Source: an uncultured Prevotellaceae bacterium (lineage in GTDB: Bacteria; Bacteroidota; Bacteroidia; Bacteroidales; Bacteroidaceae). Taken from it: DNA of 32,050 nucleotides. The stretch is taken from the NCBI GenBank assembly GCA_947170495.1, contig CAMVUB010000025.1:1-32050 (forward strand), given 5' to 3'. The translations under genes were made by a program, and so were the position numbers. Under the pieces are notes generated by a model, which was not told the origin of the DNA, made no database searches, and saw only the letters and a list, made by a program, of their open reading frames with translations. Each line of letters begins with the position of its first letter. The first letter of the stretch is position 1. Of this stretch, positions 4,479 to 32,023 are shown in pieces.

Positions 4479-4524
4479 GGCCCCCTCTAAATCTCCCCGA
4501 GGGGAGACTTGGGGAAGGGGGAAG
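4479..4524. repeat. GGCCCCCT palindromic repeat between aguB and aguA
   Basis: GGCCCCCTCTAA leads into the perfect hairpin TCTCCCC-GA-GGGGAGA (4492-4507), followed by CTTGGGGAAGGGGG. It is a member of the family also seen at 3511, 8353, 24181 and 24425. It lies just upstream of the aguA start. Confidence 0.75.
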
Positions 4525-4534
4525 ATATTAAAGG

Positions 4535-4618
4535 GGTGAGGGTTAAGGGGTGAGGGGTTAGCGTTTAGGGGTTAGCGTTTAGGGGTTAGCGTTTATGGTT
4601 AAGGGTTAAGGTTTAAAG
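4535..4618. repeat. Twelve degenerate 7-bp tandem repeats at the aguB 3' end
   Basis: The stretch divides cleanly into twelve heptads, for example GGTTAGC and GTTTAGG alternating three times, then GTTTATG, GTTAAGG, GTTAAGG and TTTAAAG. The aguB stop codon (4613-4615) lies in the last unit. Together with the palindrome at 4479 it fills the gap between aguB and aguA. Confidence 0.85.
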
Positions 4619-5497
4619 ATCTTTGTCGCGGAAGCGGCAGAGGAGGTCTTGGTAGGCGTCGATGCGGCGGTCGCGGAGGAAGGGCCACCAGCGGCGGACT
4701 TGCTCGGAGCGACGGAGGTCAACATCGACGAGGAGGTTCTCGGGTTCTGTCTGGGAGGCTTCGGCCAGGAGCTCGCCCTGGGGGCCGCAGACGAAGCTGG
4801 AGCCCCAGAACTGGATGCCACGGGTCTGGCCGCTGGGATCGGGCTCATGCCCTACCCTATTCACGGCGACGACGGGGAGGCCGTTGGCGACGGCATGGCC
4901 ACGCTGCACGAGCTGCCAGGCTTGGCGCTGGCGCGCCTGCTCGTCGGGGGTGTCGCTGCTCTCGTAGCCGATGGCGGTGGGATAGATGAGGATGTCGGCA
5001 CCGGCGAGGGCCATCAGGCGGGCTCCCTCGGGGTACCACTGGTCCCAGCATACCTGCACGCCGAGGCGTCCGACGCTGGTCTGGATGGGCTGGAAGCCGA
5101 GGTCGCCGGGGGTGAAATAGAACTTCTCGTAGTAGGCGGGGTCATCGGGGATGTGCATCTTGCGATGGACGCCGGCGATGCTGCCGTCGCGCTCGAAGAC
5201 GACGGCGGTGTTGTGGTAGAGGCCGGGGGCACGGCGCTCGAAGAGGCTGGTGACGAGGACGACGCCATGCTCCTTGGCCAGGGCACCGAAGAAGTGGGTG
5301 CTGGGGCCTGGGATGGGCTCGGCGAGGTCGAAATTGTCAACGGATTCCACCTGGCAGAAGTATGGGGTGTTATGGAGCTCCTGCAGCACGACGAGCTCTG
5401 CGCCACGGGCAGCGACGTCGGCGATGGCGGCGGCGATGCGAGAGCGGTTCTCGTCGATGGAGGGGGTGCAGGGGTGTTGGATGAGGGCGAGGAGCAT
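4613..5497 (-). CDS. aguB: N-carbamoylputrescine amidase (nitrilase superfamily)
   Basis: Hydrolyses N-carbamoylputrescine to putrescine, CO2 and ammonia, completing the agmatine route begun by AguA. The 294-residue protein has the nitrilase triad: E40 in VLQELHNTPYFCQ, K113 in HRKMHIPDDPAYYEKFYF, and C150 in GVQVCWDQWYPEGAR. The length and the IPDDP...EKFYFTPGD stretch fit the N-carbamoylputrescine amidase branch rather than beta-ureidopropionase. It is followed by aguA on the same strand; the roughly 145-base gap holds only repeats, so co-transcription is likely. The upstream gap to the ABC ATPase gene (5498-5590) is also repeat sequence with no recognisable promoter. Confidence 0.95.
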   Translation of the reverse strand: MLLALIQHPCTPSIDENRSRIAAAIADVAARGAELVVLQELHNTPYFCQVESVDNFDLAEPIPGPSTHFFGALAKEHGVVLVTSLFERRAPGLYHNTAVVFERDGSIAGVHRKMHIPDDPAYYEKFYFTPGDLGFQPIQTSVGRLGVQVCWDQWYPEGARLMALAGADILIYPTAIGYESSDTPDEQARQRQAWQLVQRGHAVANGLPVVAVNRVGHEPDPSGQTRGIQFWGSSFVCGPQGELLAEASQTEPENLLVDVDLRRSEQVRRWWPFLRDRRIDAYQDLLCRFRDKDL

Positions 5498-5509
5498 GGA
5501 GGGGGAATG

Positions 5510-5565
5510 GTTTATGGTTGAGGGTTTATGGTTGAGAGGTTAGCGTTTAGGGGTTAGCGTTTAGG
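5510..5565. repeat. Eight degenerate 7-bp tandem repeats upstream of aguB
   Basis: Heptads in register: GTTTATG, GTTGAGG, GTTTATG, GTTGAGA, GGTTAGC, GTTTAGG, GGTTAGC, GTTTAGG. Same family and partly the same order as the array at 4535-4618, at the other end of aguB. Confidence 0.85.
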
Positions 5566-5569
5566 GTTG

Positions 5570-5590
5570 CCTAGGGGAGCCTAGGAGGGC

Positions 5591-5599: not shown

Positions 5600-6224
<625 letters not shown>

Positions 6225-6226
<2 letters not shown>

Positions 6227-6340
6227 TGAAAGATTGAAAGATTGAAAGATTGAAAGATTGAAAAAATCTATACGCTGTCGGCCCTGCTAATGACTGTAGC
6301 AACAGAAACTTTCAATGTTTCAATCTTTCAATTTTTCAAT
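6225..6340. repeat. Facing 8-bp repeat arrays between pheS and fetA
   Basis: Five units of ATTGAAAG/A (6225-6264) face four units of the reverse-complement type NTTTCAAT (6309-6340) across a 44-base centre. They could pair as a long AT-rich stem in the pheS-fetA transcript. The fetA start codon is in the left array and the pheS stop (6342) abuts the right one. Confidence 0.85.
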
Positions 6341-6341
6341 T

Positions 6342-7367
6342 TTAGTTAGCAGCGGTGAATTCTTCGAGGAAGCGGACGTCGTTCTCGGAGAAGAGGCGGA
6401 GGTCCTTGACCTGGTACTTCAGGTTGGCGATGCGCTCGATGCCCATACCGAAGGCGTAGCCGGTGTACTGGGTGCTGTCGATGCCATTGGCTTCGAGGAC
6501 AGCGGGGTCCACCATGCCGCAGCCGAGGATCTCGAGCCAGCCGGAACCCTTGCACATGGAGCAGCCCTTGCCGCCGCAGATGGTGCAGCTGACGTCCATC
6601 TCGGCCGAGGGCTCGGTGAAGGGGAAGTAGCTGGGGCGCAGACGGATCTGGGTCTCGGGGCCGAACATCTCCTGAGCGAAGAGGAGGAGCACTTGCTTGA
6701 GGTCCTTGAAGCTGACGTTCTTGTCGATATAGAGGCCTTCCACCTGGTGGAAGAAGCAGTGGGCACGGGCGCTGACGGCCTCGTTGCGATAGACGCGACC
6801 GGGGCAGATGACGCGGATGGGCGGCTGCTGCTTCTCCATCACACGTGCCTGCACGCTGGAGGTGTGGGAACGTAGGATGATGTCGGGGTGCGCCTCCACG
6901 AAGAAGGTGTCCTGCATATCGCGGGCAGGGTGGTCGTCGGCGAAGTTCATGGAGCTATAGACGTGCCAGTCGTCCTCCACCTCGGGACCTTCGGCGAGGG
7001 TGAAGCCCAGGCGCGAGAAGATATCGACGATCTCGTTCTTGACGATGGTCAGGGGATGGCGCGTGCCCAGCGCGATGGGGTAAGCGGTACGCGTGAGGTC
7101 GAGGTCGTCGGCCACCGTCTCCTGAGCGGCGGCAGCGGCCTTGAGCTGGTTGATGCGCTCGGTGGCGTAGTCCTTGAGTTCGTTGATGTGGCGCCCCACC
7201 TCTTTCTTCATGTCGTTGGGGATGGTACGGAACTCATCCATCAGCGCGCTGATTTCACCTTTCTTACTCAAATACTTGATGCGAAGTGCTTCCACCTCCT
7301 CGGGTGTAGCAGCTGAAACCTGCTGCACTTCCTCAAGCATTTGCTTGATCTTTTCGAGCATATTCAT
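6342..7367 (-). CDS. pheS: Phenylalanine-tRNA ligase alpha subunit
   Basis: Catalytic alpha subunit of the PheS2PheT2 synthetase, which charges tRNA-Phe; class II aminoacyl-tRNA synthetase. Residues 1-90 form the N-terminal coiled coil (LEEVQQVSAATPEEVEALR and on). Class II motifs follow: HPARDMQDTFFV, motif 2 RVYRNEAVSARAHCFFHQVEG, and C-terminal motif 3 GMGIERIANLKYQVKDLRLF. A CTICGGKGCSMCKGSGW segment sits in the usual place. The 341-residue length is normal. The start is 7367 or the second ATG at 7361; there is no clear Shine-Dalgarno sequence, as is common in Bacteroidetes. A TATCTTTG box lies about 35 bases upstream. pheT is not in the window. Confidence 0.96.
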   Translation of the reverse strand: MNMLEKIKQMLEEVQQVSAATPEEVEALRIKYLSKKGEISALMDEFRTIPNDMKKEVGRHINELKDYATERINQLKAAAAAQETVADDLDLTRTAYPIALGTRHPLTIVKNEIVDIFSRLGFTLAEGPEVEDDWHVYSSMNFADDHPARDMQDTFFVEAHPDIILRSHTSSVQARVMEKQQPPIRVICPGRVYRNEAVSARAHCFFHQVEGLYIDKNVSFKDLKQVLLLFAQEMFGPETQIRLRPSYFPFTEPSAEMDVSCTICGGKGCSMCKGSGWLEILGCGMVDPAVLEANGIDSTQYTGYAFGMGIERIANLKYQVKDLRLFSENDVRFLEEFTAAN

Positions 7368-19448: not shown

Positions 19449-20518
19449 TGGCTGCGGCGCTGCTTTTGCTGTTTCTTACGACGGCGCACAGGTTGGTAGG
19501 GTTTCTCCTTAACGACATTGATCTTCTGCTCCACGTCCTGTTGCTCGCGGAACTCCAGCGGCGAGCGACGGTGTTGCGTGGAATCGGTGAGGGCGCCAAT
19601 GACGCGGCCCTGGGGTGCTGCGACACTGTCGGCAGCGGTGCTATCTAAGGCAAGGGTGTCCACGGGGTTCAGCTTGTCGCGCCACACCTGGGTCTTATGG
19701 AAACGGATAAGGGAGAGGCGGTTGATGACGTAGGTGACGCTGCGCTGCGGGTCGCGCTCGATGGGCATATAGAAATGTCCGGCTACGCTTTTCGCCACCC
19801 ACCCCTCGCTGTTGTTGATACGTAGCTCGTTGTTGGAGCGCGAGGTGCACTGCAGCGTGGTGGCACGCACGGAGTCGTTGGTATAGGTGACGACGAGGCT
19901 GATGTAGAGCGAGGAGATGAGGTCGCGCGAGAACACCTGCGGCGAGAAGCTGAAGAGGACATCATCGCCGGCGAGCCATGTGCTGTCGCAGGCTACGAGC
20001 CACGACTGCAGGTGCTCGCTGCCGTGGTTGTGAACGGCAATGACCTGGCGTCCAACCCACACGTTGGCCGTATCTCCCTCGGCGGTGTAGCGACCGTAGA
20101 GGTCGGCTTCGTCGGTGACGGCTCCCAGTGCCTCGGCATCACGCTCCATGCGTTCTGCGATGTTCTTGTAGATGCGGTCGAGGCGGTCCAGGTCGCTGCA
20201 ATAGAATACCATCGAGCTGTCGAACTCGGCACGCGTGATATGGTGCTTGCGGAAGACGGCTTCCTCCATCTCATAACGGCGCTCATCCAGCGAGCGTCCC
20301 TCCTCGTAGGGCAGGTTATCTGCGATGCTCTGCGCCACGTGGTAGTCATAGAGCACTCGCTCCATCTTACTCTCCGAGATAACGCCGCCAGGAATGCTGG
20401 GCTTACAGGAAGAGAAAAAAATTGAAAAATTGAAAAATTGAAAGATTGAAAGGAGGAGTACAAGGCGGGAGGCCACCTTGTGCAAGCCACGTTTCCCAAA
20501 GGATGAAATATTTTTCAA
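19445..20518 (-). CDS. DUF4296 lipoprotein
   Basis: Bacteroidetes lipoprotein of unknown function found with lspA. The DUF4296 part is about residues 42-130: CKPSIPGGVISESKMERVLYDYHVAQSIA, then FRKHHITRAEFDSSMVFYCSD. The lipobox is FSSC. The C-terminus is basic and low-complexity (PVRRRKKQQKQRRSQ). There is no ATG in a plausible position. The longest frame starts at TTG 20518, four bases after the lspA stop, and a GTG at 20476 is the alternative and gives a tidier signal peptide. The signal core SIFQFFNFSIFF is encoded entirely by 8-bp repeats (20421-20452). The gene overlaps the following small gene by four bases. Confidence 0.8.
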   Translation of the reverse strand: MKNISSFGKRGLHKVASRLVLLLSIFQFFNFSIFFSSCKPSIPGGVISESKMERVLYDYHVAQSIADNLPYEEGRSLDERRYEMEEAVFRKHHITRAEFDSSMVFYCSDLDRLDRIYKNIAERMERDAEALGAVTDEADLYGRYTAEGDTANVWVGRQVIAVHNHGSEHLQSWLVACDSTWLAGDDVLFSFSPQVFSRDLISSLYISLVVTYTNDSVRATTLQCTSRSNNELRINNSEGWVAKSVAGHFYMPIERDPQRSVTYVINRLSLIRFHKTQVWRDKLNPVDTLALDSTAADSVAAPQGRVIGALTDSTQHRRSPLEFREQQDVEQKINVVKEKPYQPVRRRKKQQKQRRSQ

Positions 20519-20543
20519 TTTTTCAATCTTTCAATTTTTCAAT
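20421..20543. repeat. Facing 8-bp repeat arrays at the lspA/DUF4296 junction
   Basis: Four ATTGAAAA/G units (20421-20452) face four complementary TTTTCAAT/CTTTCAAT units (20512-20543) across 59 bases. Same layout as at 6225-6340. The right array encodes the LspA tail and its stop and holds the TTG start; the left array encodes the DUF4296 signal peptide. Confidence 0.88.
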
Positions 20544-21188
20544 CTCTTCCCCCTTCTTCGCTCCCAGCTCTGTCGAGAGGGTGTCGCGATAGAACAGGAG
20601 GAGGGCAATGACGCCACAGGAGATGCAGGCGTCGGCGACGTTGAAGATGTAGGAGAAGAAGAGGTAGTGCTGACCGCCGATGAAGGGCATCCATGCGGGC
20701 CAGTCCCACTCGAAGAGGGGAAACGAGAACATATCCACGACGCGGCCGTAGAACCACGTGCTGTAGCCCGTGCCGAAGGGCACGAACTGCGCCACCTGCG
20801 GCCATGCGGGGTCGTTGAAGATGAGGCCGTAGAAGAGGCAGTCGATGATGTTGCCTGCCGCGCCGGTCATGATGAAGGCCATGCAGATGAGGTAGCCCCA
20901 CCCTACTCCCTTGCGTATGAGTCGCATGATGTAGTAGGCGAGGAAGAGCGTGGCCAGGATGCGGAAGCCCGTGAGGAAGAGTTTGTCGAAGAACTCCATG
21001 CCAAAGGCCATGCCGTTGTTCTCGATGAAGGTGATGTAGAACCAGTCGGTGATGCGGCGGCTCTCATGCAGCGCCATGTGCGTCTTCACCCATATCTTCA
21101 CGGCCTGGTCGATGGCCATGAAACCCAAGAAGATGGCAGCCACCGCGGCGGCCTGCCATCGTTTTACGTGTGATGTCAACGTTGTCAA
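20523..21188 (-). CDS. lspA: Lipoprotein signal peptidase (signal peptidase II)
   Basis: Aspartic peptidase of the inner membrane that cleaves prolipoprotein signal peptides after lipidation. Four membrane helices are visible (about 13-30, 71-91, 97-118, 178-202). The catalytic dyad is D116 in AAGNIIDCLFYG and D186 in IFNVADACIS, and NNGMAFG (58-64) matches the conserved region. At 221 residues it is longer than the E. coli enzyme because of an extended periplasmic loop (about 124-176), as I recall for Bacteroidetes. The C-terminus EIEKLKD and its stop come from an 8-bp repeat array. It follows dksA by 13 bases; the next gene encodes a lipoprotein. Confidence 0.95.
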   Translation of the reverse strand: MTTLTSHVKRWQAAAVAAIFLGFMAIDQAVKIWVKTHMALHESRRITDWFYITFIENNGMAFGMEFFDKLFLTGFRILATLFLAYYIMRLIRKGVGWGYLICMAFIMTGAAGNIIDCLFYGLIFNDPAWPQVAQFVPFGTGYSTWFYGRVVDMFSFPLFEWDWPAWMPFIGGQHYLFFSYIFNVADACISCGVIALLLFYRDTLSTELGAKKGEEIEKLKD

Positions 21189-24600: not shown

Positions 24601-25109
24601 TCATAGAGCTGCTTCAGGAGCCACCACAGCGACTCGATATACTTGTTGTCGTAGGTGATGTACGGATGTTCCATATCGACCCAGTAGCCCATGCGGCGGC
24701 TGAGGTCCTCCCATTCGCTGGTGAACATCATCACGTTCTCGCGGCACTTGCGGTTGTAGTCGTCGATGGAGATGGTCTTGCCGATGTCCTCCTTCGTGAT
24801 GCCGAGTTCCTTCTCCACGCCCAGCTCCACGGGCAGTCCGTGGGTGTCCCACCCCGCCTTGCGGTGGACCTGGAAGCCCTTCATGGTCTTGAAGCGGCAG
24901 AAGGTGTCCTTGATGGAGCGCGCCAGCACATGGTGGATGCCGGGGTGTCCGTTGGCCGAGGGAGGGCCCTCGAAGAAGACGAACGAGGGGCAGCCCTCGC
25001 GCTCGTCGATGCTGCGGTGGAACAGGTCCTCGCGGTCCCACTGTTTCAATATCTCATGGTTCACCTCCGTGAGGTTGAACTTCGAATATTCAGGGAATTT
25101 CTTACTCAT
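21630..25109 (-). CDS. ileS: Isoleucine-tRNA ligase (with repeat-derived in-frame insertions)
   Basis: Charges tRNA-Ile; class I synthetase. The start at 25109 (MSKKFPEYSKFNLTEVNHEI) gives 1159 residues; a longer frame to 25202 would include the promoter. The HIGH-equivalent site is SANGHPGIHH (51-60), KMSKR is at 705-709, and the editing/CP1 region spans roughly 190-420. GWDTHGLPVE and the overall length resemble the eukaryote-like type 2 IleRS (often mupirocin-insensitive; inference). Three segments look inserted: HLPLGEGWEGATL (about 24181-24210), SGSPKGEGFPES (about 24417-24462), and PSTLNPQPSTN (22419-22455). Each is encoded by a repeat found elsewhere in the window. Confidence 0.96.
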   Translation of the reverse strand: MSKKFPEYSKFNLTEVNHEILKQWDREDLFHRSIDEREGCPSFVFFEGPPSANGHPGIHHVLARSIKDTFCRFKTMKGFQVHRKAGWDTHGLPVELGVEKELGITKEDIGKTISIDDYNRKCRENVMMFTSEWEDLSRRMGYWVDMEHPYITYDNKYIESLWWLLKQLYEKGLLYKGYTIQPYSPAAGTGLSSHELNQPGCYRDVKDTTVTAQFRVMAPSGSPKGEGFPESLVKVFEMGLPVYILAWTTTPWTLPSNTALCVGPKIKYVAVKGQNPYSKEEAIYIVAESRKNAYFPEDEEHLPLGEGWEGATLVGLHYEQLFPWVKPCALEGGKAVDKSAEAFRVIPGDYVTTEDGTGIVHIAPTFGADDAKVAKDAGIPSLFVIDKAGDTRPMVDFTGKYFVKADMDEAFVESCVNDSYWHHAGDFVKNAYDPQYAGLDEKALAKTEDLNIVLCMEMKQEGTAFKIEKHVHNYPHCWRTDKPVLYYPLDSWFIRSTAAKERMMELNKSILWKPESTGSGRFGKWLENLNDWNLSRSRYWGTPLPIWRNRETREEICIGSIEELYNEIEKSVRAGVMASNPLKDKGFVPGDMSQENYDRIDLHRPYVDNIILVGESGQPLQRELDLIDVWFDSGAMPYAQIHYPFENKEALDKRVVYPADFIAEGVDQTRGWFFTLHAIATMVFDSVAYKAVISNGLVLDKNGLKMSKRLGNAINPFDNIEKFGSDAVRWYMITNSQPWDNLKYDEAGVQEVSRSFFGKLYQTYSFLAMYANVDGWHFEEPEVPMSQRSEMDRWILSSLNTLIREVEQSYEAYEPTRAGRLIQAFVIDNVSNWFVRLSRKRFWGGEMSIDKLSAYQTLYTCLETVSRLMAPIAPFYADQLYRDLHGPSTLNPQPSTNSVHLATFPVADDALIDKEQESRMALAQEITSMVLSLRKKEQIIVRQPLARIAIPAIDRELQQRIEAVKQLILDEVNVKELEFVEGAGLLTKKVKCNFRTMGKKFGKLMKDVNAAVTALTQEQIAVLETGQLPLTLPTGDAITVELEDVEIFSEDIPGWTVANDGVLTVALDITVTDELRNEGIAREIIKRIQNLRKESGFEITDRIHITLEHNAQTDRAVEAFGSYITAQVLADGITLADTVADAAVLDFEDFQLKARIEKI
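22422..22449. repeat. Four exact GGTTGAG heptads inside ileS
   Basis: Four identical tandem copies of GGTTGAG. Read on the minus strand they give LNPQPST within the ileS product, between catalytic core and C-terminal regions. Confidence 0.88.
24181..24206. repeat. Partial GGCCCCCT-family repeat inside ileS
   Basis: CCTTCCCAACCTTCCCCAAG followed by GGGC; the CTTCCCC-AA-GGGG core resembles the outer part of the palindrome family at 4479-4524 in reverse. It is translated as LPLGEGWEG. Confidence 0.55.
24425..24462. repeat. GGCCCCCT-family palindrome inside ileS
   Basis: Perfect CTCCCCC-TT-GGGGGAG hairpin (24432-24447) followed by CCGGAGGGGGCC. It is translated in frame as GPSGSPKGEG-type sequence in the ileS product. 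Confidence 0.8.
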
Positions 25110-25172
25110 ATCACTTATGCTTCTGTTAACCTTGATTATATGCGTGAATATATGGTCTCTATAAAAACGGCG

Positions 25173-25203
25173 CAAAAATACACAATTCATGCCGAACAGC
25201 AAA
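25173..25203 (-). promoter_or_regulatory. Promoter of the ileS operon
   Basis: On the minus strand TTTG (25200-25203), 19 bases, then TATTTTTG (25173-25180): a full match to the Bacteroidetes TTTG/TAnnTTTG promoter. It leaves a leader of about 55-60 bases before ATG 25109. Confidence 0.85.
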
Positions 25204-25300
25204 ATAATTTATTATTTTTTGTGTGCCCGTGTGACATTTTACGCCCCTCATTTCCATTTTCCACGTTTCATTCCGAGCGCGAGTATCAGTAAACTCAACC

Positions 25301-25337
25301 GCAACATTGAATTCGTCCTGTTGCAACATTGAATTCG
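25301..25337. repeat. 15-bp direct repeat
   Basis: GCAACATTGAATTCG occurs at 25301-25315 and exactly again at 25323-25337, directly before the large palindrome. Confidence 0.85.
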
Positions 25338-25387
25338 CCTTGGTCTTATGCCGTGTTCCACCGGTGGAACTCGGCGTAAGACCAAGG
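25338..25387. repeat. 50-bp near-perfect palindrome
   Basis: Two 25-bp arms with no loop and only two mismatched pairs; the outer part is CCTTGGTCTTA and its complement, the centre GTTCCACC/GGTGGAAC. It could extrude as a cruciform or be a recombination or transposon-end relic. Confidence 0.9.
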
Positions 25388-25397
25388 TCTTCACGCG

Positions 25398-25415
25398 TTT
25401 CTCACTGGTGAGAAA
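25398..25415. repeat. 8-bp hairpin TTTCTCAC/GTGAGAAA
   Basis: Perfect 8-bp arms around TG. The centre CACTGGTG resembles the CACCGGTG centre of the neighbouring 50-bp palindrome. Confidence 0.7.
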
Positions 25416-25521
25416 ACCATTCACACCCTGCTGCGTTGGCGTTTTCACCTTGCTGAATCGCGCTTCGATGCATGGTGCACATGATTCAGCCCATTCACAA
25501 CGCTCATCAAACAGCCAAGCA

Positions 25522-25797
25522 GAAGGGCAGCTCTCGCCGGCTTACGATATGGGATATGCCTATAACCCTCAGGGCGGTTGGACAGCCACGCACCAGATGT
25601 CCATTAATGGGAAGTTCGATGACATCACGCGTCAGGATCTGCTCGCCTTTGCCAGTCAGAACAATATCAAGGAAGCCACATCCATCATCGATGAGATTTG
25701 CGAAGCAGCATCTCATTGGACCAAGTTCGCAGAGGAGTGCGGTGTGCCGCAGGAGATGCAGAACCGCATCGTTCCGAATCTATTGCTTAGCCTGTAG
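25522..25797 (+). pseudogene. hipA: hipA toxin remnant (C-terminal about 90 codons)
   Basis: Only the C-terminal part of a HipA-family serine/threonine kinase toxin remains. LSPAYDMGYAYNPQGGWTATHQ, followed by MSINGK, then DDITRQDLLAFASQNNIKEA and FAEECGVPQEM, matches the familiar HipA end (LSPAYD, HQMSINGK, YA..AGVP). The active-site regions that normally precede LSPAYD, including the catalytic Asp and DFG-like motif, are missing. The frame stays open upstream to 25348, but that sequence is unrelated and partly palindromic. No hipB is present. It probably survives as a non-functional remnant. Family assignment is from remembered motifs. Confidence 0.75.
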
Positions 25798-25871
25798 CCA
25801 CTCTGTGCTTGCGTAACCCTCGTAGGGCTTTCCTCAAAATAAATCTGCTCCCCACAAAAAGACACTAGTAG

Positions 25872-25921
25872 TCCCTCGCCTTACCCTCTATAGTCCCTAC
25901 GCGCAGACACTGTAGAGGGTT
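25872..25921. repeat. 50-bp direct repeat, left copy, flanking the AbiE genes
   Basis: Begins TCCCTCGCCTTACCCTC and ends ACTGTAGAGGGTT; identical over all 50 bases to 27841-27890. Internally ACCCTCTATAGT (25883-25894) pairs with ACTGTAGAGGGT (25909-25920) with one mismatch, across 14 bases. Confidence 0.93.
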
Positions 25922-26063
25922 GTTTATATAGCGGCTCATGCCGTTGTCGTCCATGTCATCCTCTGACGCTGGATCGATGTGGCGCATGCCAATATGATGA
26001 ATCCTGGCTTCATTGCTCTTTACCTTATTATAAATTATTACGCTACCTGTAGGATGGCGGTGA
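25922..26063. other. AT-rich gap between left repeat and abiEii stop
   Basis: About 140 bases with no gene I can support. A minus-strand frame runs through it (ending in the repeat, NPLQCLRVGTIEGKARD) but has no start of its own and no recognised homology. Confidence 0.4.
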
Positions 26064-26867
26064 TCAATCTCGTTTCCCCTCCATCCTGTCAATAAACGTC
26101 TTGTAAACCAATGGATAGGCTTCCACTGGCGAGAATGTAATCTCCGGTCGGAGAAGCATCGTTGTGTCATCCAAGAACTCTGGGTCTTGCATCTTCTCCT
26201 CCATATTGTTCACATACTGCTTGTACGACGGAGCCTTATCTACCACGAACTCCATATACTTCCTGTAGCATTGCATAACCTTCTCCACGTCCACATCCCT
26301 GCGCTGAAGAGCGATGTAGAGGTCAAACAGGTCACGTCCCTTCTTTCGTTGGTACAGCGCACGCAGTTTGGTGCCAAGCAATTCCTCAAAATGGTAGGTT
26401 GTCAGCTCTGCCGTGCCTGTGAACCATGAGTTCTCCATGCTGAAAGGAACTTTCGTCAACCCCAGCACATTGAAATGCTCAAAGCAATTGATCTCTATCT
26501 TCAATCGTATCTGCACCACAGGAGCGATTTCCGATTCCACCCTGAACAGCATCGTGTTGTTGTATCGCTTCTGCTTCGTCACTCTGTCAGGCAGCCAGCT
26601 TAGCACTTCACCCAGTCGATACATGATGGGCTTGATAGGACCCGGATTAATCTGCACCAAGTCAATATCCTCACTATATCGGGGCTGCGGCGACAAGTAA
26701 AGCTTATGTAGCGCCGTACCGCCACGGAACGCCAGTTGCGAAGCAAGGAATTCATCGCTGAAGATGCTTATCAACGCACGGCAGATGATGAGGTCCTGTT
26801 CCACCATATAAGGTTCCGTCCACGGAGCTTTCTCCTTACATTCTTGGATAAGGTATTCTGGTATCAT
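26064..26867 (-). CDS. abiEii: AbiEii-family nucleotidyltransferase toxin
   Basis: Predicted toxin of the AbiE phage-abortive, type IV toxin-antitoxin family (COG2253), a nucleotidyltransferase of the DNA polymerase beta fold. The start at 26867 (MIPEYLIQECKEKAPWTEP) gives 267 residues and overlaps the abiEi stop as ATGA (26864-26867). The active site is visible: FRGGTALHKLYL (motif GGTxLxK, 49-55) and RYSEDIDLV with D67 and D69. Later conserved stretches are ELLGTKLRALYQRKKGRDLFDLY. All key residues look intact, so the protein is probably active. A longer start at 26909 would extend into abiEi and is unnecessary. Confidence 0.9.
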   Translation of the reverse strand: MIPEYLIQECKEKAPWTEPYMVEQDLIICRALISIFSDEFLASQLAFRGGTALHKLYLSPQPRYSEDIDLVQINPGPIKPIMYRLGEVLSWLPDRVTKQKRYNNTMLFRVESEIAPVVQIRLKIEINCFEHFNVLGLTKVPFSMENSWFTGTAELTTYHFEELLGTKLRALYQRKKGRDLFDLYIALQRRDVDVEKVMQCYRKYMEFVVDKAPSYKQYVNNMEEKMQDPEFLDDTTMLLRPEITFSPVEAYPLVYKTFIDRMEGKRD

Positions 26868-27676
26868 ATTTCGTCTGTTTCTATTTCTTGGTTGACAATC
26901 ACCTTCCATCTGCTGTCAATCATCATTCCGTCAGTTTGAGGCTTCGCCTGCTTCAGACGAATCTTTCGGAACACCTTTTCCTGCTTTTGTGCCAGCATCA
27001 GCAGATGGTCTGCCAACTCATGTTCCTCAATCAAATCAAGCAGATGGCCCAGGCGCTGAATCACGGGTGCGTTGAAGAAATCAAGGAGTTCTGCATTGGC
27101 TTTATCGAAGCGCATATTCTCTGCCAGTTCCATCAAAACCTCTGCCACACGGCTAAGTCCGCCCACCTTCTCTTCATTAAGCACTAGGTCAAGCGCAGTC
27201 AGCTCTGGCGACGAAACGTTCATGAACCCCATCTGCGTCTTCACCTGCTTCACGTAGGCCAGCGGGAGCGGATTGCGAAGCGTGAAATCAAGCCTTACAC
27301 CATTCTTGATACTAGAGCGTATAGGCGCACCGTTCACTGTCACCTGAAACACCATAGCGCGCTGATGCCCTGCACCATTCAACGCAGCAGCCGACAGCAG
27401 AGACACGTAATAATCCCTGCCCAGATGCTTCATCAGCCTGTCAATATAGAACGATGGTGGCACCTCACCCCTCAGACGATACTCCGTAGGCACCGTTACA
27501 TAGAAATTCTGCCAAGGGGAAACAATCATCCCCTTCTTAACCAGCCTCGACAAAGCCGTCCTCAGACTTTCCTCAGTTTGCGACAGCCCTTGCGCCAGCA
27601 CATCTTCCTTAGTAAAGATATACTTGCCACGTATCATTTGCTGATCCACCCAATGTTGTAAGCTGTCCGTTTGCAT
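26864..27676 (-). CDS. abiEi: AbiEi-family antitoxin/transcriptional repressor
   Basis: Partner of AbiEii; characterised AbiEi proteins repress the operon and neutralise the toxin. The 270 residues start with a winged-helix region (about 15-60: YIFTKEDVLAQGLSQTEESLRTALSRLVKKGMI) followed by WQNFYVTVPTEYRLRGEVPPSFYIDRLMK and a C-terminal domain with SSPELTALDLVLNEEKVGGL. That combination is typical of AbiEi-like antitoxins. The gene overlaps abiEii by four bases. A full TTTG/TAnnTTTG promoter lies at 27730-27761. A 7-bp inverted repeat overlaps its -7 box, a plausible autoregulatory operator. Confidence 0.86.
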   Translation of the reverse strand: MQTDSLQHWVDQQMIRGKYIFTKEDVLAQGLSQTEESLRTALSRLVKKGMIVSPWQNFYVTVPTEYRLRGEVPPSFYIDRLMKHLGRDYYVSLLSAAALNGAGHQRAMVFQVTVNGAPIRSSIKNGVRLDFTLRNPLPLAYVKQVKTQMGFMNVSSPELTALDLVLNEEKVGGLSRVAEVLMELAENMRFDKANAELLDFFNAPVIQRLGHLLDLIEEHELADHLLMLAQKQEKVFRKIRLKQAKPQTDGMMIDSRWKVIVNQEIETDEI

Positions 27677-27713
27677 GACAATCCGCTGCTAAAAATAAAC
27701 TGTTCCTGTTTAC

Positions 27714-27734
27714 ATTTGCATTTCGGCTGCAAAT
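27714..27734. promoter_or_regulatory. Candidate AbiEi operator
   Basis: ATTTGCA, 7 bases, TGCAAAT: perfect inverted repeat overlapping the abiE -7 box (27730-27737) and start region. A direct repeat CAATTATTTG at 27740 and 27770 lies 30 bp apart just upstream. Binding is inferred from the known autoregulation of AbiE operons. Confidence 0.5.
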
Positions 27735-27761
27735 ATACGCAATTATTTGGCACCAACCAAA
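27730..27761 (-). promoter_or_regulatory. Promoter of the abiE operon
   Basis: Minus strand: TTTG (27758-27761), 20 bases, TATATTTG (27730-27737), a full Bacteroidetes promoter match 54 bases upstream of abiEi. Confidence 0.8.
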
Positions 27762-27840
27762 ATTTTCGTCAATTATTTGCCGTTCCGTCGTTATTTGTCT
27801 TCCCTCATCCCTATTACATCTTCCTTCATCCATCTTCCAC

Positions 27841-27890
27841 TCCCTCGCCTTACCCTCTATAGTCCCTACGCGCAGACACTGTAGAGGGTT
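27841..27890. repeat. 50-bp direct repeat, right copy, flanking the AbiE genes
   Basis: Identical to 25872-25921, offset 1969 bases. Just beyond it CAGGCACTATAGAAGGT (27895-27911) is a degenerate copy of the repeat's right half CAGACACTGTAGAGGGT. Confidence 0.93.
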
Positions 27891-28061
27891 CGTTCAGGCA
27901 CTATAGAAGGTAGCTAGACCTTGTGGCAATCGGTTTATAGTATTAGTGGTTCAGAGGAGTACCCATTTCCTTCTAGAGGTATGTATGAAAGTTCCTGTCC
28001 ATAAATGCAGAAAATCTGAAGTGAGACTACAGATGTTCGTTGAAAATTCCACGAAGAAGTC
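27891..28061. other. Gap between right repeat and the RhuM-family gene
   Basis: About 170 bases; apart from the degenerate half-repeat at 27895-27911 I see no gene, promoter match or clear terminator. Confidence 0.5.
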
Positions 28062-29096
28062 CTATTTTTCCGTCATTTCTCCTTCTTTTTCTTTAGCTGT
28101 CAGTTTCTTCTGCTCACGTTCGAACTGCTCCAAGAAGTGAATCTCAACAGGTGTCAGTTCATTCTTTATACGTTCCTTGAACTTGTCGTACTCAGAATCA
28201 GCTTTCGCTTTAGCCAACTGGGCAGATACCTTTCCAGCATGAGTCAGAATATCTTTGCGGGAGACGCGCAGGAAATCATCCAGGATGGCAATCCAGTCCT
28301 TCATGTACATGGGGCGATGCTCCTCTGCTTGCAGTTCTGCGAAGTCAAGATACAGACTGACGATACGGTTGAGTGTTGTGATTTCTTTTTCAGACAGGTA
28401 GTTCTTTGCAATCTCGGCGTCCGTTTTCCTTGGCATTGCTCCCGTCCATGTGGTAAGTCCCATGAAGTCCTTCTCGGCATTAGCCCGCTCATAGATGATT
28501 TCCGCAGCCGTATGTCCATGCACCGAATAATGCATCTTATTCTGTACTGTTCTGAAGAACTGTTGCGTCATTTCCACGTCGGGGTTATAGTCGATGCTGA
28601 GAGCATAGATTTCCAGCACCTTGCGGTAGAAGACCTTCTCTGAAGAACGGATGTCACGAATACGTGCCAACAGTTCGTCAAAGTAGTTGCCGCCTCCAGC
28701 TCGCTTCAGCAGGTCGTCGTTCAGAGCAAATCCTTTTATGATATAGTCTTTCAGCACGCGTGTTGCCCACATCCTGAACTGAACACCGCGATAAGAATGA
28801 ACACGATACCCCACGCTGATAATCATGTCGAGGTTGTAGAAAGCGATATCTCGTTCTACTTGTCTCTCTCCTTCTTTTTGAACTGTTGCAAAAAACGCAA
28901 CAGTTGACTCCTGCTTCAATTCTCCCTGCTCAAAAGCATTCCTAATGTGCCTTGAGATGGTGGATTTGTTACGTTGAAACAACTCCGCCATCTGGTCCAG
29001 GCTCAGCCACACCGTCTCGCCTTGCAGCCGTACCTCAATGCGTGTCTCACCGTCGGGAGTCTGATACAGTAATATTTGTCCCTTGTTTTCTTCCAT
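28062..29096 (-). CDS. RhuM-family protein
   Basis: Member of the RhuM (Virulence_RhuM) family, named after a Salmonella pathogenicity-island gene; molecular function not established. The 344 residues open with LLYQTPDGETRIEVRLQGETVWL, then a helix-turn-helix-like LSLDQMAELFQRNKSTISRHIRNAF (about 32-56). The family core is RQVERDIAFYNLDMIISVGYRVHSYRG, FRMWATRVLKDYIIKGFALND. The C-terminal half is helical with FMGLTTWTGAMPRKTDAEIAKNYL. The helix-turn-helix suggests DNA binding. It follows the KAP gene by 39 bases without a visible promoter, so the two are likely co-transcribed. RhuM genes are commonly found in islands and among defence or TA genes. Confidence 0.85.
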   Translation of the reverse strand: MEENKGQILLYQTPDGETRIEVRLQGETVWLSLDQMAELFQRNKSTISRHIRNAFEQGELKQESTVAFFATVQKEGERQVERDIAFYNLDMIISVGYRVHSYRGVQFRMWATRVLKDYIIKGFALNDDLLKRAGGGNYFDELLARIRDIRSSEKVFYRKVLEIYALSIDYNPDVEMTQQFFRTVQNKMHYSVHGHTAAEIIYERANAEKDFMGLTTWTGAMPRKTDAEIAKNYLSEKEITTLNRIVSLYLDFAELQAEEHRPMYMKDWIAILDDFLRVSRKDILTHAGKVSAQLAKAKADSEYDKFKERIKNELTPVEIHFLEQFEREQKKLTAKEKEGEMTEK

Positions 29097-29135
29097 ATAT
29101 TTTATAACGTCTTCGATTTCTGTACTAAGTGTTTC

Positions 29136-30545
29136 TTATTGTAGTACCAATCCATATTCCAATTCTATCCTCTTAATCAGATTCTGCAATGGAATTACAC
29201 CTCGATACCAATTGTCGTAGTACCATATTAGAGCCTCGACAAATGTTTTGGAGTCCAGGTGCTTCGTATGGAGAGTACTAGTCTTTTCCTCATTTGAAGT
29301 AAAAATGTGTTCACGCTCCCGCACATTGTCATCAAGAGTATACATGAAAACAAACGATGCAATCGCATAAGTCATTTGTCTCCATTCTGATTTGTTCTCA
29401 TCCAAAACAAGTAACTCCAGAGGAAGGAAATCTTCCAATTCATTAAGCAACTCTTGAGCCGTCAACTGCTCGTTCATAATATTGCTATAGAGCCTGTTAT
29501 TTGCAATTTTCAGATAGCACAACATGAAAAACACATCAGGAACGATGTAGTTGTTCTGACTAAATCCTATCAAAGCTAGGCGGGTATGAGCGAAAATCTT
29601 ATCTGTCGTACGGAGATCTATATTAGACGAAGATATTAATGTGCAGGCTATCCGCTTAAAACGATCTTCATCGGATCTGAATTCGTGATATTGCTTCCTA
29701 TCTTTGTGATTAAAGACATCGCTGAAGTGATAAACATCATAGAGATATTGGCAAAAATCTTCACCTTTAGGTCGTGGCAATGTGTATTCAATGTCTATGA
29801 AACGACGCAAATAGTTGCTTGCATCTATACTTGCACTACCATAATAGCCTTGTATGGCATATTCCAACTGTTTCTTGTTGACTGATAATACAAAAACCAC
29901 GTTGGGAATATCAAACAGGTGTTTTATCCTCTCCAAAACAAGTACGGAAAAACAAGGGCTGCATCTGTCAAGCTCGTCAACAAAGAAGACGACAGGAAAT
30001 TCCTCCGTTGTGTTTTCCGCAATATAACTCTGTAAGGCGCTTCGAAATTCCGCAAATGTGGACTTATGCTTTGAGAATTCCTCTATGTCTTCTTTCAGCA
30101 ACTTTCCAACTTCATCGACACCCACCTCAATAGCATTCGAATCAATTCCCAACTTATTTTTGACGACTGTCTTTATTGCCGATGTCGCAATGCTTGTTAT
30201 AATCCTACCTCCACTTGAAATAATGCCATCCCATTTGCTTGATTGTGGCGACAAGTCTTTCAGTCCTGCTAACAATGCAATCAACGGGTCAGACACATAG
30301 TCGTTCTCCCATGCATTAAAATACAAGGGATGCCCACCTTCATTCTCCATTTTCTGCATAAGCATCTTTATGAAGGTAGTTTTGCCAGTCCCCCATTCGC
30401 CATTAAGTGCAACAACACAACCTGTTGTCGAATACATCCTCAATATAGAAAGGAATGTATTCGCACAAGATTCTCTATTCAATTTGTCGTTCTCAAAAGG
30501 CTTCTCTTTTGGAACTTCTATTTCTGGCAGTCTATTTCTTAACAT
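29136..30545 (-). CDS. KAP-family P-loop NTPase
   Basis: KAP ATPases are STAND-class NTPases often linked to membranes and, in bacteria, to phage defence. The 469-residue protein has Walker A NGEWGTGKTT (48-57), the KAP-type YFNAWENDYVSDP just after it, and Walker B FPVVFFVDELDRCSP (183-197). VFVLSVNKKQLEYAIQGYYG and YLRRFIDIEYTLPRP (sensor-like region) follow. A mildly hydrophobic stretch near 107-128 sits where KAP proteins carry membrane helices, but it is not strongly membrane-like. No effector domain is recognised in the C-terminal 200 residues. Its start lies 19 bases from the last decayed CRISPR repeat, on the same strand as the array and cas7. Confidence 0.85.
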   Translation of the reverse strand: MLRNRLPEIEVPKEKPFENDKLNRESCANTFLSILRMYSTTGCVVALNGEWGTGKTTFIKMLMQKMENEGGHPLYFNAWENDYVSDPLIALLAGLKDLSPQSSKWDGIISSGGRIITSIATSAIKTVVKNKLGIDSNAIEVGVDEVGKLLKEDIEEFSKHKSTFAEFRSALQSYIAENTTEEFPVVFFVDELDRCSPCFSVLVLERIKHLFDIPNVVFVLSVNKKQLEYAIQGYYGSASIDASNYLRRFIDIEYTLPRPKGEDFCQYLYDVYHFSDVFNHKDRKQYHEFRSDEDRFKRIACTLISSSNIDLRTTDKIFAHTRLALIGFSQNNYIVPDVFFMLCYLKIANNRLYSNIMNEQLTAQELLNELEDFLPLELLVLDENKSEWRQMTYAIASFVFMYTLDDNVREREHIFTSNEEKTSTLHTKHLDSKTFVEALIWYYDNWYRGVIPLQNLIKRIELEYGLVLQ

Positions 30546-30563
30546 ATACTATTTTTTAATTTT

Positions 30564-30903
30564 GTCCAAAATCTTCTTTAGTACGATTATGATGCGGCGA
30601 TGTCTTCGCATGCCTTATAGTTCACCTTGTTTCAATTCTTCTTTAGTACGTCGCAGCATGAACTCCTGCGTGGCGTGCTCATTTCAATTCTACATTAGTA
30701 CGATTATTATGTGGCACGGGATCTGTTAGTGTTCCAGCTGTACACATTTCAATTCTATGAAAGTACAATTAATACTCACTGATAAGATGGGCGAGGTACG
30801 GAATACGACATTTCAATTCTACATAAGTACGATTATGATGCGAAAAGACAGCACTCTTCTGCGCCATCTACTTATTTCAATTCTACATAAGTACGATTAC
30901 ATC
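30564..30903 (-). CRISPR. Short, decayed CRISPR array (six repeats, type I-B-like)
   Basis: A repeat of about 30 bp beginning ATTTCAATTC, with GTAC in the middle and GATTATGAT at the end, starts at 30564, 30629, 30681, 30746, 30810 and 30874. Spacers are 34-35 bases, except one interval shortened by about 13 bases because the second repeat lost its right end. Transcribed on the minus strand, the repeat ends ATTGAAAT, the 8-base handle typical of type I-B crRNAs; this is kept in the four repeats nearest cas7, is ATTGAAAC in the next, and lost in the last. Decay increases away from cas7, as expected for the leader-distal end. Confidence 0.88.
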
Positions 30904-30967
30904 ATACAACCCCACCAACTTCTCAGGTAGGTAGAGTTGCATGATGTGTTTAGGGTTTGCTCTGTCA
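30904..30967 (-). promoter_or_regulatory. Possible short CRISPR leader
   Basis: Only 64 bases separate the cas7 stop from the first repeat. No TAnnTTTG box or long AT-rich leader is evident, so the array may be transcribed as an extension of the cas operon. Confidence 0.3.
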
Positions 30968-32023
30968 TCATTGATTCTCATAATTAAAGTCATTCATCAT
31001 TTGAATGAGTTTCTCTTCTGCAGCGTTCAAAGCATCCACACTTTCATTCTCAGTCACAATATAGCTGGCACAAGGAAGAGTGACAAACACATCCGCACCA
31101 GCAGTTTCATCAATAATTGGTTTTGCCGATGGGCGTTCTCCTTCATCTATAAGCTTTGCACGAATGGCACCAGGGATTGTGTTCGCATTGTCACTAATGG
31201 CGACAGCAAGTGTTTCCATCAAGCTGAAAGTACGCGCCTGATTGGATGTAATTCGCCAGTTCAGTAATGCATGGGCCAAAGCGGGGATAATCTCAGCTCT
31301 TCTTTCTTTAGGCATTACAAGGCACTCTCCAAAAACATTTTTACTAACAACCCACCCCTTTCCTTTTAGAGCCTCTATCATCTCTGTTGATATCTCTGGC
31401 TCATGCTGATTTGTTGACACTGAGAATAACCTTCTCAGGTCAATAGCTACGTCACATACGAAAAGGCCTGTTGTACGCGAATTTTCAGGAATCCAAGAAC
31501 GACGAGGTATTGTACGCTCGTTACTTAACAAATAGGCCTCAATCTCTTCCTCCGTCAGAGGTTTGTCACGTCCCTCCATCCTTACAATAATGGGATTATT
31601 GTCTGGTCTGTCACTGCGATCAAAAGTCAGATTCTCTTTACCAACAGAAACTAATAGAGGATGCAAGGGCCTCATTGCTGAAATAGACAATGGGCTGCGG
31701 CGTTTCTTTGTAATACCATCGCCAGCACGCATCCAACCACCAAGCAACTGATCTATATAATTAGGGTCGCATGGTGACCAAGGCTCTTTATTTTCAAGGG
31801 CCTGATTCTTGTTGATGTTGTAGTTGAATGTTACTGGTGCCAACTGTTCACCCAGCGAATCAACCAATGTCTGAAGAATAGAGCGCTTAACTTGTTGACC
31901 ACTTGAATAGGCAACAGTCTTTCCATTGAACAGAGGGTCTCTATAAGTCTTTTGACCATCCTCTACACAGAACACCGTGTGCTCAGCATGCTTAAGAACA
32001 CGTAAATAAATGTATGGTTCCAT
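30968..32023 (-). CDS. cas7: Cas7-family CRISPR effector protein (type I-B, DevR/Cst2-like)
   Basis: Probable backbone subunit of a type I Cascade complex, which coats the crRNA. The 351 residues begin with a RAMP-like first strand (YIYLRVLKHAEHTVFCVEDG) followed by the hallmark AYSSGQQVKRSIL (38-50). Later segments SISAMRPLHPLLVS and RTTGLFVCDVAIDLRRLFSV, and the C-terminal FSLMETLAVAISDN, fit Bacteroidales type I-B Cas7 as I remember it. The subtype rests on that memory and on the ATTGAAAT repeat handle. It is transcribed toward the CRISPR array, 64 bases away. cas5, cas6, cas8, cas3 and cas1-2 are not seen and, if present, lie to the right of the window. Confidence 0.78.
   Translation of the reverse strand: MEPYIYLRVLKHAEHTVFCVEDGQKTYRDPLFNGKTVAYSSGQQVKRSILQTLVDSLGEQLAPVTFNYNINKNQALENKEPWSPCDPNYIDQLLGGWMRAGDGITKKRRSPLSISAMRPLHPLLVSVGKENLTFDRSDRPDNNPIIVRMEGRDKPLTEEEIEAYLLSNERTIPRRSWIPENSRTTGLFVCDVAIDLRRLFSVSTNQHEPEISTEMIEALKGKGWVVSKNVFGECLVMPKERRAEIIPALAHALLNWRITSNQARTFSLMETLAVAISDNANTIPGAIRAKLIDEGERPSAKPIIDETAGADVFVTLPCASYIVTENESVDALNAAEEKLIQMMNDFNYENQ

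Follow-up and report, generated by a model that had tools for sequence, protein, structure and literature searches.

A 50-bp direct repeat around an abiE toxin-antitoxin pair in an uncultured Prevotellaceae bacterium: probable duplication of part of a dispersed palindromic element

Introduction

How small toxin-antitoxin and defence modules move between genomes without a transposase is a question raised by a contig of an uncultured Prevotellaceae bacterium, in which an abiE gene pair is bracketed by two identical 50-bp sequences. Do these repeats belong to the cassette, as a signal by which it is gained and lost, or to the site in which it came to lie? The answer matters to annotators, since direct repeats that flank a defence gene may mark where it landed rather than form an attachment site. 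Should target duplications bracket abiE pairs above the rate of their neighbourhood, their route would moreover be readable from genomes and testable in culturable Bacteroidales. The stretch of DNA analysed here (32,050 nucleotides; henceforth the window) is an entire contig of an assembly of 84 contigs that is 79% complete.

The AbiE cassette and its flanking repeat

The 50-bp sequence at positions 25872-25921 of the plus strand (copy 1) recurs exactly at 27841-27890 (copy 2, plus strand), with a start-to-start distance of 1,969 bp and an insert of 1,919 bp separating the copies, and the bases flanking the two copies diverge at once on both sides. Two intact genes, identified from their translations, are encoded on the minus strand of the insert, namely those for the AbiEi antitoxin (26864-27676; 270 aa; PF09407, 9.6e-25; PADLOC AbiEi, 2.6e-92) and the AbiEii nucleotidyltransferase toxin (26064-26909; 281 aa; PF08843, 1.2e-33, residues 45-247; PADLOC AbiEii, 1.3e-116). 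The former lies just upstream of the latter in the same operon, and the frames, both open from start to stop, overlap by 46 bp. The AbiEii frame contains GGT...EDID, which we take to be the catalytic motif. The sequence and the two protein families therefore confirm the exact repeat, its spacing and the intact gene pair that it brackets, as described in the original prediction. The AbiEi start lies 164 bp from copy 2 and the AbiEii end about 145 bp from copy 1. In its two protein families and overlapping frames the pair resembles the AbiE type IV toxin-antitoxin systems; compared with these the proteins show nothing unusual, and the flanking repeat alone is noteworthy.

The cassette has a GC content of 0.48, while that of the leftmost 21.6 kb of the contig is 0.59. 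AbiEii relatives with up to 91% identity are encoded at two loci in a collection of named genomes (L104 and L105), while four relatives were found among viral contigs, the best of which shows 87% identity (L293). Homology to these three carriers at the DNA level covers window positions 26063-27743 (L104), 26066-27780 (L105) and 26066-27737 (L293), stopping near the AbiEii stop codon and in the promoter, and the surroundings differ. Since the homology ends at these points in all three, the movable unit would comprise the two genes and their promoter, which together have the look of a compact unit of lateral transfer. To this extent the analysis supports the part of the original prediction that envisaged a defence cassette being gained and lost as one piece, but the 50-bp repeat is not its signal. 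No match to the window repeat element was found in the 10.8 kb around L104 and L105. At L293 the AbiEii gene adjoins a large ORF and a UmuC-like ORF, the latter named by eye from the start of the ORF. A search of plasmids returned a single match, in Rhizobium, covering 7% of the query.

Each copy of the repeat contains inverted-repeat arms (ACCCTCTATAGT and ACTGTAGAGGGT) that match at 11 of 12 positions, so that the 12-bp inverted repeat noted previously is present but imperfect. As single-stranded DNA the 50-mer folds into a hairpin with a free energy of -7.5 kcal/mol (z -2.54), and three of 200 shuffled sequences fold equally well. A role of the palindrome as the AbiEi operator was considered and rejected, as the homology to close relatives ends before it. 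For AbiE itself the repeats are probably without function.

A dispersed palindromic intergenic element

The 50-bp repeat is not specific to abiE but forms the core of an intergenic element (element A) that is palindromic and modular. The window genome contains six places with at most three mismatches to the 50-mer, including the two in the window (none with a reversed-pattern control), and 15 distinct places that match a degenerate core, some on both strands. Core matches are present in six of the 139 genomes of the genus, the window genome included, and a DNA search of these six listed more diverged copies. The loci examined yielded 73 contexts of element A, some of them representing one place read on both strands. 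Distinct copies number 67, spread over five genomes, and the window genome has 16 of them; the single core match in G030 did not fit the pattern used for this count. An exact 24-base pattern of the element occurs in none of the viral contigs, and an Rfam scan of 25200-31000 returned just two sub-threshold animal microRNA matches, on a palindrome at 25338-25387.

Element A has a sharp start (GACACTASTASTCCCTCGCC) followed by modules of ~22 bp centred on CTATAG, the number of units being variable, and it occurs in mosaics with other intergenic repeats. Inspected by eye, the modules (L103, L229 and L234, among others) carry a small set of four-letter words around CTATAG (CCCT/AGGG, GACA/TGTC, GAGA and TCCC). 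The family is not purely recent, because some copies keep the same flanks across species (L006/L190 and L016/L201).

Short dispersed intergenic palindromes arranged in mosaics are reminiscent of the REP and BIME elements that accompany RAYT (TnpA-REP) genes, of which the Bacteroidetes subclass 2.6 has atypical structures according to passages of PMC6006769. Genes of this kind were reached through the IS200-type transposase family, which was matched in 62 of the 139 genomes. In the A-bearing genomes G000, G082, G095, G109 and G126 the matches are weak only (E 7e-5 to 9e-4) and lie within ORFs of 388-456 aa, which led to the RAYT-like genes; G030 has no match to this family. Of 39 RAYT-like loci, four have a copy of element A no more than 700 bp away, where 0.46 would be expected, and two of these four appear to be orthologous; the remaining 35 have no listed copy within this distance, and the counts rely on lists of A and RAYT-like coordinates that may be incomplete. 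This proximity hints at a REP-like nature. Unlike REP and BIME elements, element A has CTATAG modules of ~22 bp, with units that vary in number behind a 5' end that is fixed. No foot of the GT[AG]G type was noticed beside the hairpin when its alignment was inspected by eye.

The presence of abiE is not tied to element A. Single copies of the repeat lie at many sites that have no abiE, and the repeat is thus not the signal of the cassette, while close abiE homologues are encoded in genomes in which the core scan found no repeat. Both observations are of the kind that the original prediction named as refuting it. AbiEii matches are present in 25 of the 139 genomes, the closest being those of G029 (82%), G007 (81%) and G041 (77%), all without a core match; G095 combines a distant AbiEii (55%) with copies of element A.

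An exact 50-bp repeat within 32 kb is far above the chance expectation before family membership is allowed for. Because the repeat belongs to a dispersed family, however, its chance occurrence has to be judged within that family. Among within-genome pairs of distinct A copies, eight of 515 are identical across the 50-mer; in the window genome the figure is one of 120, that one being the window pair. Element A is common in intergenic DNA, and two copies could have landed independently on either side of a pre-existing abiE operon. From 16 copies collected in 2.33 Mb, simple arithmetic gives ~0.1 same-direction pairs expected within 2 kb and ~0.002 identical pairs as close as that in the window if copies land independently and evenly, and such a double landing would also have to leave each copy truncated where its partner is complete, making this explanation very unlikely.

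Two complementary halves of one element

Copy 1 alone adjoins the 5' end that is conserved in element A (GACACTAGTAG; 25861-25871, plus strand), and copy 2 alone adjoins the 3' tail of the element (CGTTCAGGCACTATAGAAGGTA; 27891-27912, plus strand). The GACACTA motif at the 5' end is found, with at most one mismatch, in 65 of the 67 distinct copies (those of the window included), and copy 2, from which most of the 5' end is absent, is one of the two exceptions. Outside the window the 5' end is kept in 64 of 65 distinct copies, and the exception, in G095, directly follows another A-like unit. When aligned to a model of element A derived from 66 reads of copies other than these two, with a few palindromic copies read on both strands, copy 1 matched model positions 1-63 (70.9 bits) and copy 2 positions 7-82 (70.6 bits). 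Rejoining the left of copy 1 with the right of copy 2 gave a match to positions 1-82 with 80.3 bits, whereas the opposite join matched positions 8-63 with 60.6 bits. The uninterrupted element of the relative G082, which is itself among the sequences used to build the model, likewise spans positions 1-82 (83.9 bits). As the two copies are truncated in a complementary fashion, one element appears to have been split, with 50 bp doubled.

On the basis of these features and of the comparisons described below, we lean with moderate confidence towards the insertion of the abiEi-abiEii cassette into a resident A element behind hipA, accompanied by a long target duplication of 50 bp. The cassette, with its own promoter, would have entered the element that follows hipA, and 50 bp of this element would have been duplicated so that one copy lies at each end of the insert, possibly in a single event without a dedicated recombinase. 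RecA-type recombination between the copies could subsequently delete the cassette, removing 1,969 bp and restoring one normal element. The 50-bp repeats look like a landing scar and not a dedicated mobility signal. The earlier suggestion that the cassette inserted beside a dispersed intergenic repeat is supported and can be made more precise, in that the complementary halves place the cassette apparently inside one copy, which it splits. Between window positions 27839-27907 and the G082 element the identity is 92.8%. The 3' tail of copy 2 shows no more than moderate likeness to that of G082, which counts against target duplication.

A contig misjoined through the 50-bp repeat would give a similar arrangement, and the fragmented assembly, in which 84 contigs represent a genome that is 79% complete, and the location of some A copies close to the ends of contigs (G000:C13 and G082:C45, for instance) lend this some plausibility. 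However, the outer bases differ immediately, the halves are complementary and reads of more than 50 bases should resolve a repeat of this length, and an assembly artefact is considered improbable.

Comparison with related genomes

The closest view of the site without abiE is provided by G082, within a comparison set containing one genome per species. Positions 25526-25920 of the window match L092 3221-3616 of this genome with 98.5% identity over 396 bp, through the end of hipA and into element A. The last ~90 codons of hipA remain in the window as a remnant (25526-25797, plus strand), while at the matching place G082 encodes an intact hipA (HipA_C, 2.5e-50) with an upstream HTH gene. At this left-matching site G082 has one uninterrupted A element with a normal tail and no abiE. 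The right neighbour of the element is a WYL gene in G082 versus RhuM in the window, and the empty site is therefore one-sided: the single-copy site proposed as a check in the original prediction is matched in its left flank, but the right flank differs. No two-sided empty site was found in the comparison, where G082 shares the left flank only, and this counts against target duplication. A sharp mosaic junction is visible further left, where window positions 24900-25531 match G095 (93%) and positions 25526-25920 match G082 (98.5%).

The WYL gene recurs in the window genome itself, on contig C36, as a 94% match located just beyond another A element. Because WYL, hipA and abiE are joined to element A in different combinations (hipA-A-WYL in G082 versus hipA-A-abiE on C25 and A-WYL on C36 in the window genome), a serious alternative to insertion with target duplication is that two A copies recombined. 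Here, an abiE segment or circle with its own A core would have recombined with the element behind hipA, modules being shuffled at A. The identity of some within-genome pairs over the 50 bp, with many others differing at few positions, is in keeping with such exchange.

A second dispersed intergenic element, B, also bears on this question. Its 3' part lies just inside copy 1 (25926-26035, plus strand), and all or part of it is also present in G000:C3 (89%), G000:C4 (92%), G082:C28 (95%) and G126:C29 (93%). The 5' part lies just inside copy 2 (27798-27838, plus strand); in G126:C29 the 5' stretch (85%) precedes the 3' stretch with no abiE between, and positions 27805-27838 are 91% identical to a sequence in G126:C50. 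The order in the window, 3' part of B, abiE, 5' part of B, is thus a circular permutation of the element. The permuted B suggests that the incoming DNA derived from a B-bearing locus of the same genome group, perhaps as a circle, and a circle would also fit recombination at A. The donor A core would, however, need to be without most of its 5' end and be placed inside B, and the sole such copy among the 65 others is preceded by an A-like unit rather than B. Recombination at A would further leave unexplained the unrelated repeats that bracket abiE elsewhere, and we regard it as rather unlikely. A third dispersed element, C, lies to the right of the A tail (27916-27947, plus strand) and is identical over 32/32 positions in G126:C50, its first part also occurring beside the A element of G000:C36.

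Direct repeats flanking abiE loci in the Bacteroidales

Repeats around abiE are not confined to the window. The sequence of up to 600 bp before AbiEi was aligned with the 600 bp after AbiEii in 83 of 111 loci, those in which the two genes are neighbours on a single strand with 300 bp or more of sequence to either side, and direct repeats were found in 14 of these. Once the window and its duplicate locus L022 are set aside, 12 of 81 other Bacteroidales abiE loci carry a flanking repeat, ranging from 26 to 218 bp with 78-100% identity, the sequences being unrelated and locus-specific. Direct repeats occurred in 0/357 random spans in the same loci, in 1/246 mismatched flanks (the single hit pairing L124 with L125, loci with common flanks) and in 3/108 other gene pairs, with Fisher p values of 8e-10, 3e-7 and, for the gene pairs, the strictest control, 0.005, respectively. 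The loci are not all independent, as 40 pairs have a common upstream flank and L033 and L047 represent one place. The alignment replaced an earlier test for exact matches of at least 20 bp, which were found in 5/63 loci versus 0/315 random spans. At the sensitivity of the alignment, 69 of the 81 loci have no flanking repeat within 600 bp, and none of the 12 with a repeat belongs to the nine other tested loci of the genus of the window.

The repeats differ in nature between loci. That of L154 (218 bp, identical) contains the 3' end of an OmpA-family gene, that of L141 (38 bp, identical) is the 3' end of a permease-like gene and that of L132 (69 bp, 97%) is the 3' end of a DegT-type aminotransferase gene, present in three copies, the last two of which are separated by a further ORF. 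In all three the neighbouring gene whose 3' end is duplicated remains whole on one side. Imperfect repeats flank abiE at L138, L149 and L159, while those of L134 and L163 resemble repeated promoters and that of L156 a dispersed repeat. No common insert ends were seen by eye in 13 listed inserts. Positions 4012-6835 of L132 look as if two cassettes had entered one aminotransferase gene end successively. Near the abiE locus of L142 (7541-10048), two other gene pairs lie between direct repeats of ~70 bp with 97% identity.

Repeats at both ends of the insert, which at L132 and L141 are gene 3' ends, as with integrases, may alternatively represent the attachment sites of an excisable cassette dedicated to mobility. 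Around abiE, a profile scan of the six larger window proteins to the right of ileS detected no integrase or transposase family, the repeat varies by locus and that of the window occurs at many abiE-free sites, all of which make attachment sites highly improbable.

A parallel to insertion with a long target duplication is found in restriction-modification genes, for which passages of PMC1643837, PMC3031569 and PMC3874152 cite a description of such insertion by Nobusato et al. 2000 (Gene 259:99), the direct repeat being of the order of 100 bp in the passage of PMC3874152. As in these descriptions, a small unit of the toxin-antidote type lies in the window between long direct repeats of the target sequence; the repeats directly bracket the unit (50 bp, exact), and across the abiE loci they vary by site (12/81). 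The window is unlike the restriction-modification cases in its AbiE cargo and in its target, a palindromic repeat, and while the original cases were reportedly defined by comparing two related genomes, the window can be compared on one side only. By analogy, it is probably a new example of long target duplication with an AbiE cargo; no report of abiE with a long target duplication was found among the titles and abstract openings surveyed.

A broader proposal can be made tentatively, namely that the minimal abiE operon of the Bacteroidales moves alone and free of a transposase, duplicating tens to hundreds of bases of any target, sometimes a gene 3' end, so that the host gene would survive and the cassette could later be lost cleanly; the window may represent the same process in a palindromic repeat. 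If true, selfish toxin-antitoxin and restriction-modification units would share one integrase-less mobility route.

Accessory genes and other repeats in the window

At 28062-30545, abiE is followed by genes for a RhuM-family protein and a KAP NTPase (PADLOC candidate systems PDC-S05 and PDC-S20), which make the right end of the contig an accessory island of low GC content and defence-like character. Further right is a short CRISPR-like array (30569-30899), partly degenerate, with a repeat of about ATTTCAATTCTACATAAGTACGATTA and a spacing of 64-65, which adjoins a Cas7/Cst2-type gene of type I-B at the contig end (30968-32023). Elsewhere in the window, positions 4495-5582, 6206-6348 and 20396-20568 contain arrays of GGTTAGCGTTTAGGG-like repeats together with inverted arrays of 8-bp units such as GATTGAAA.
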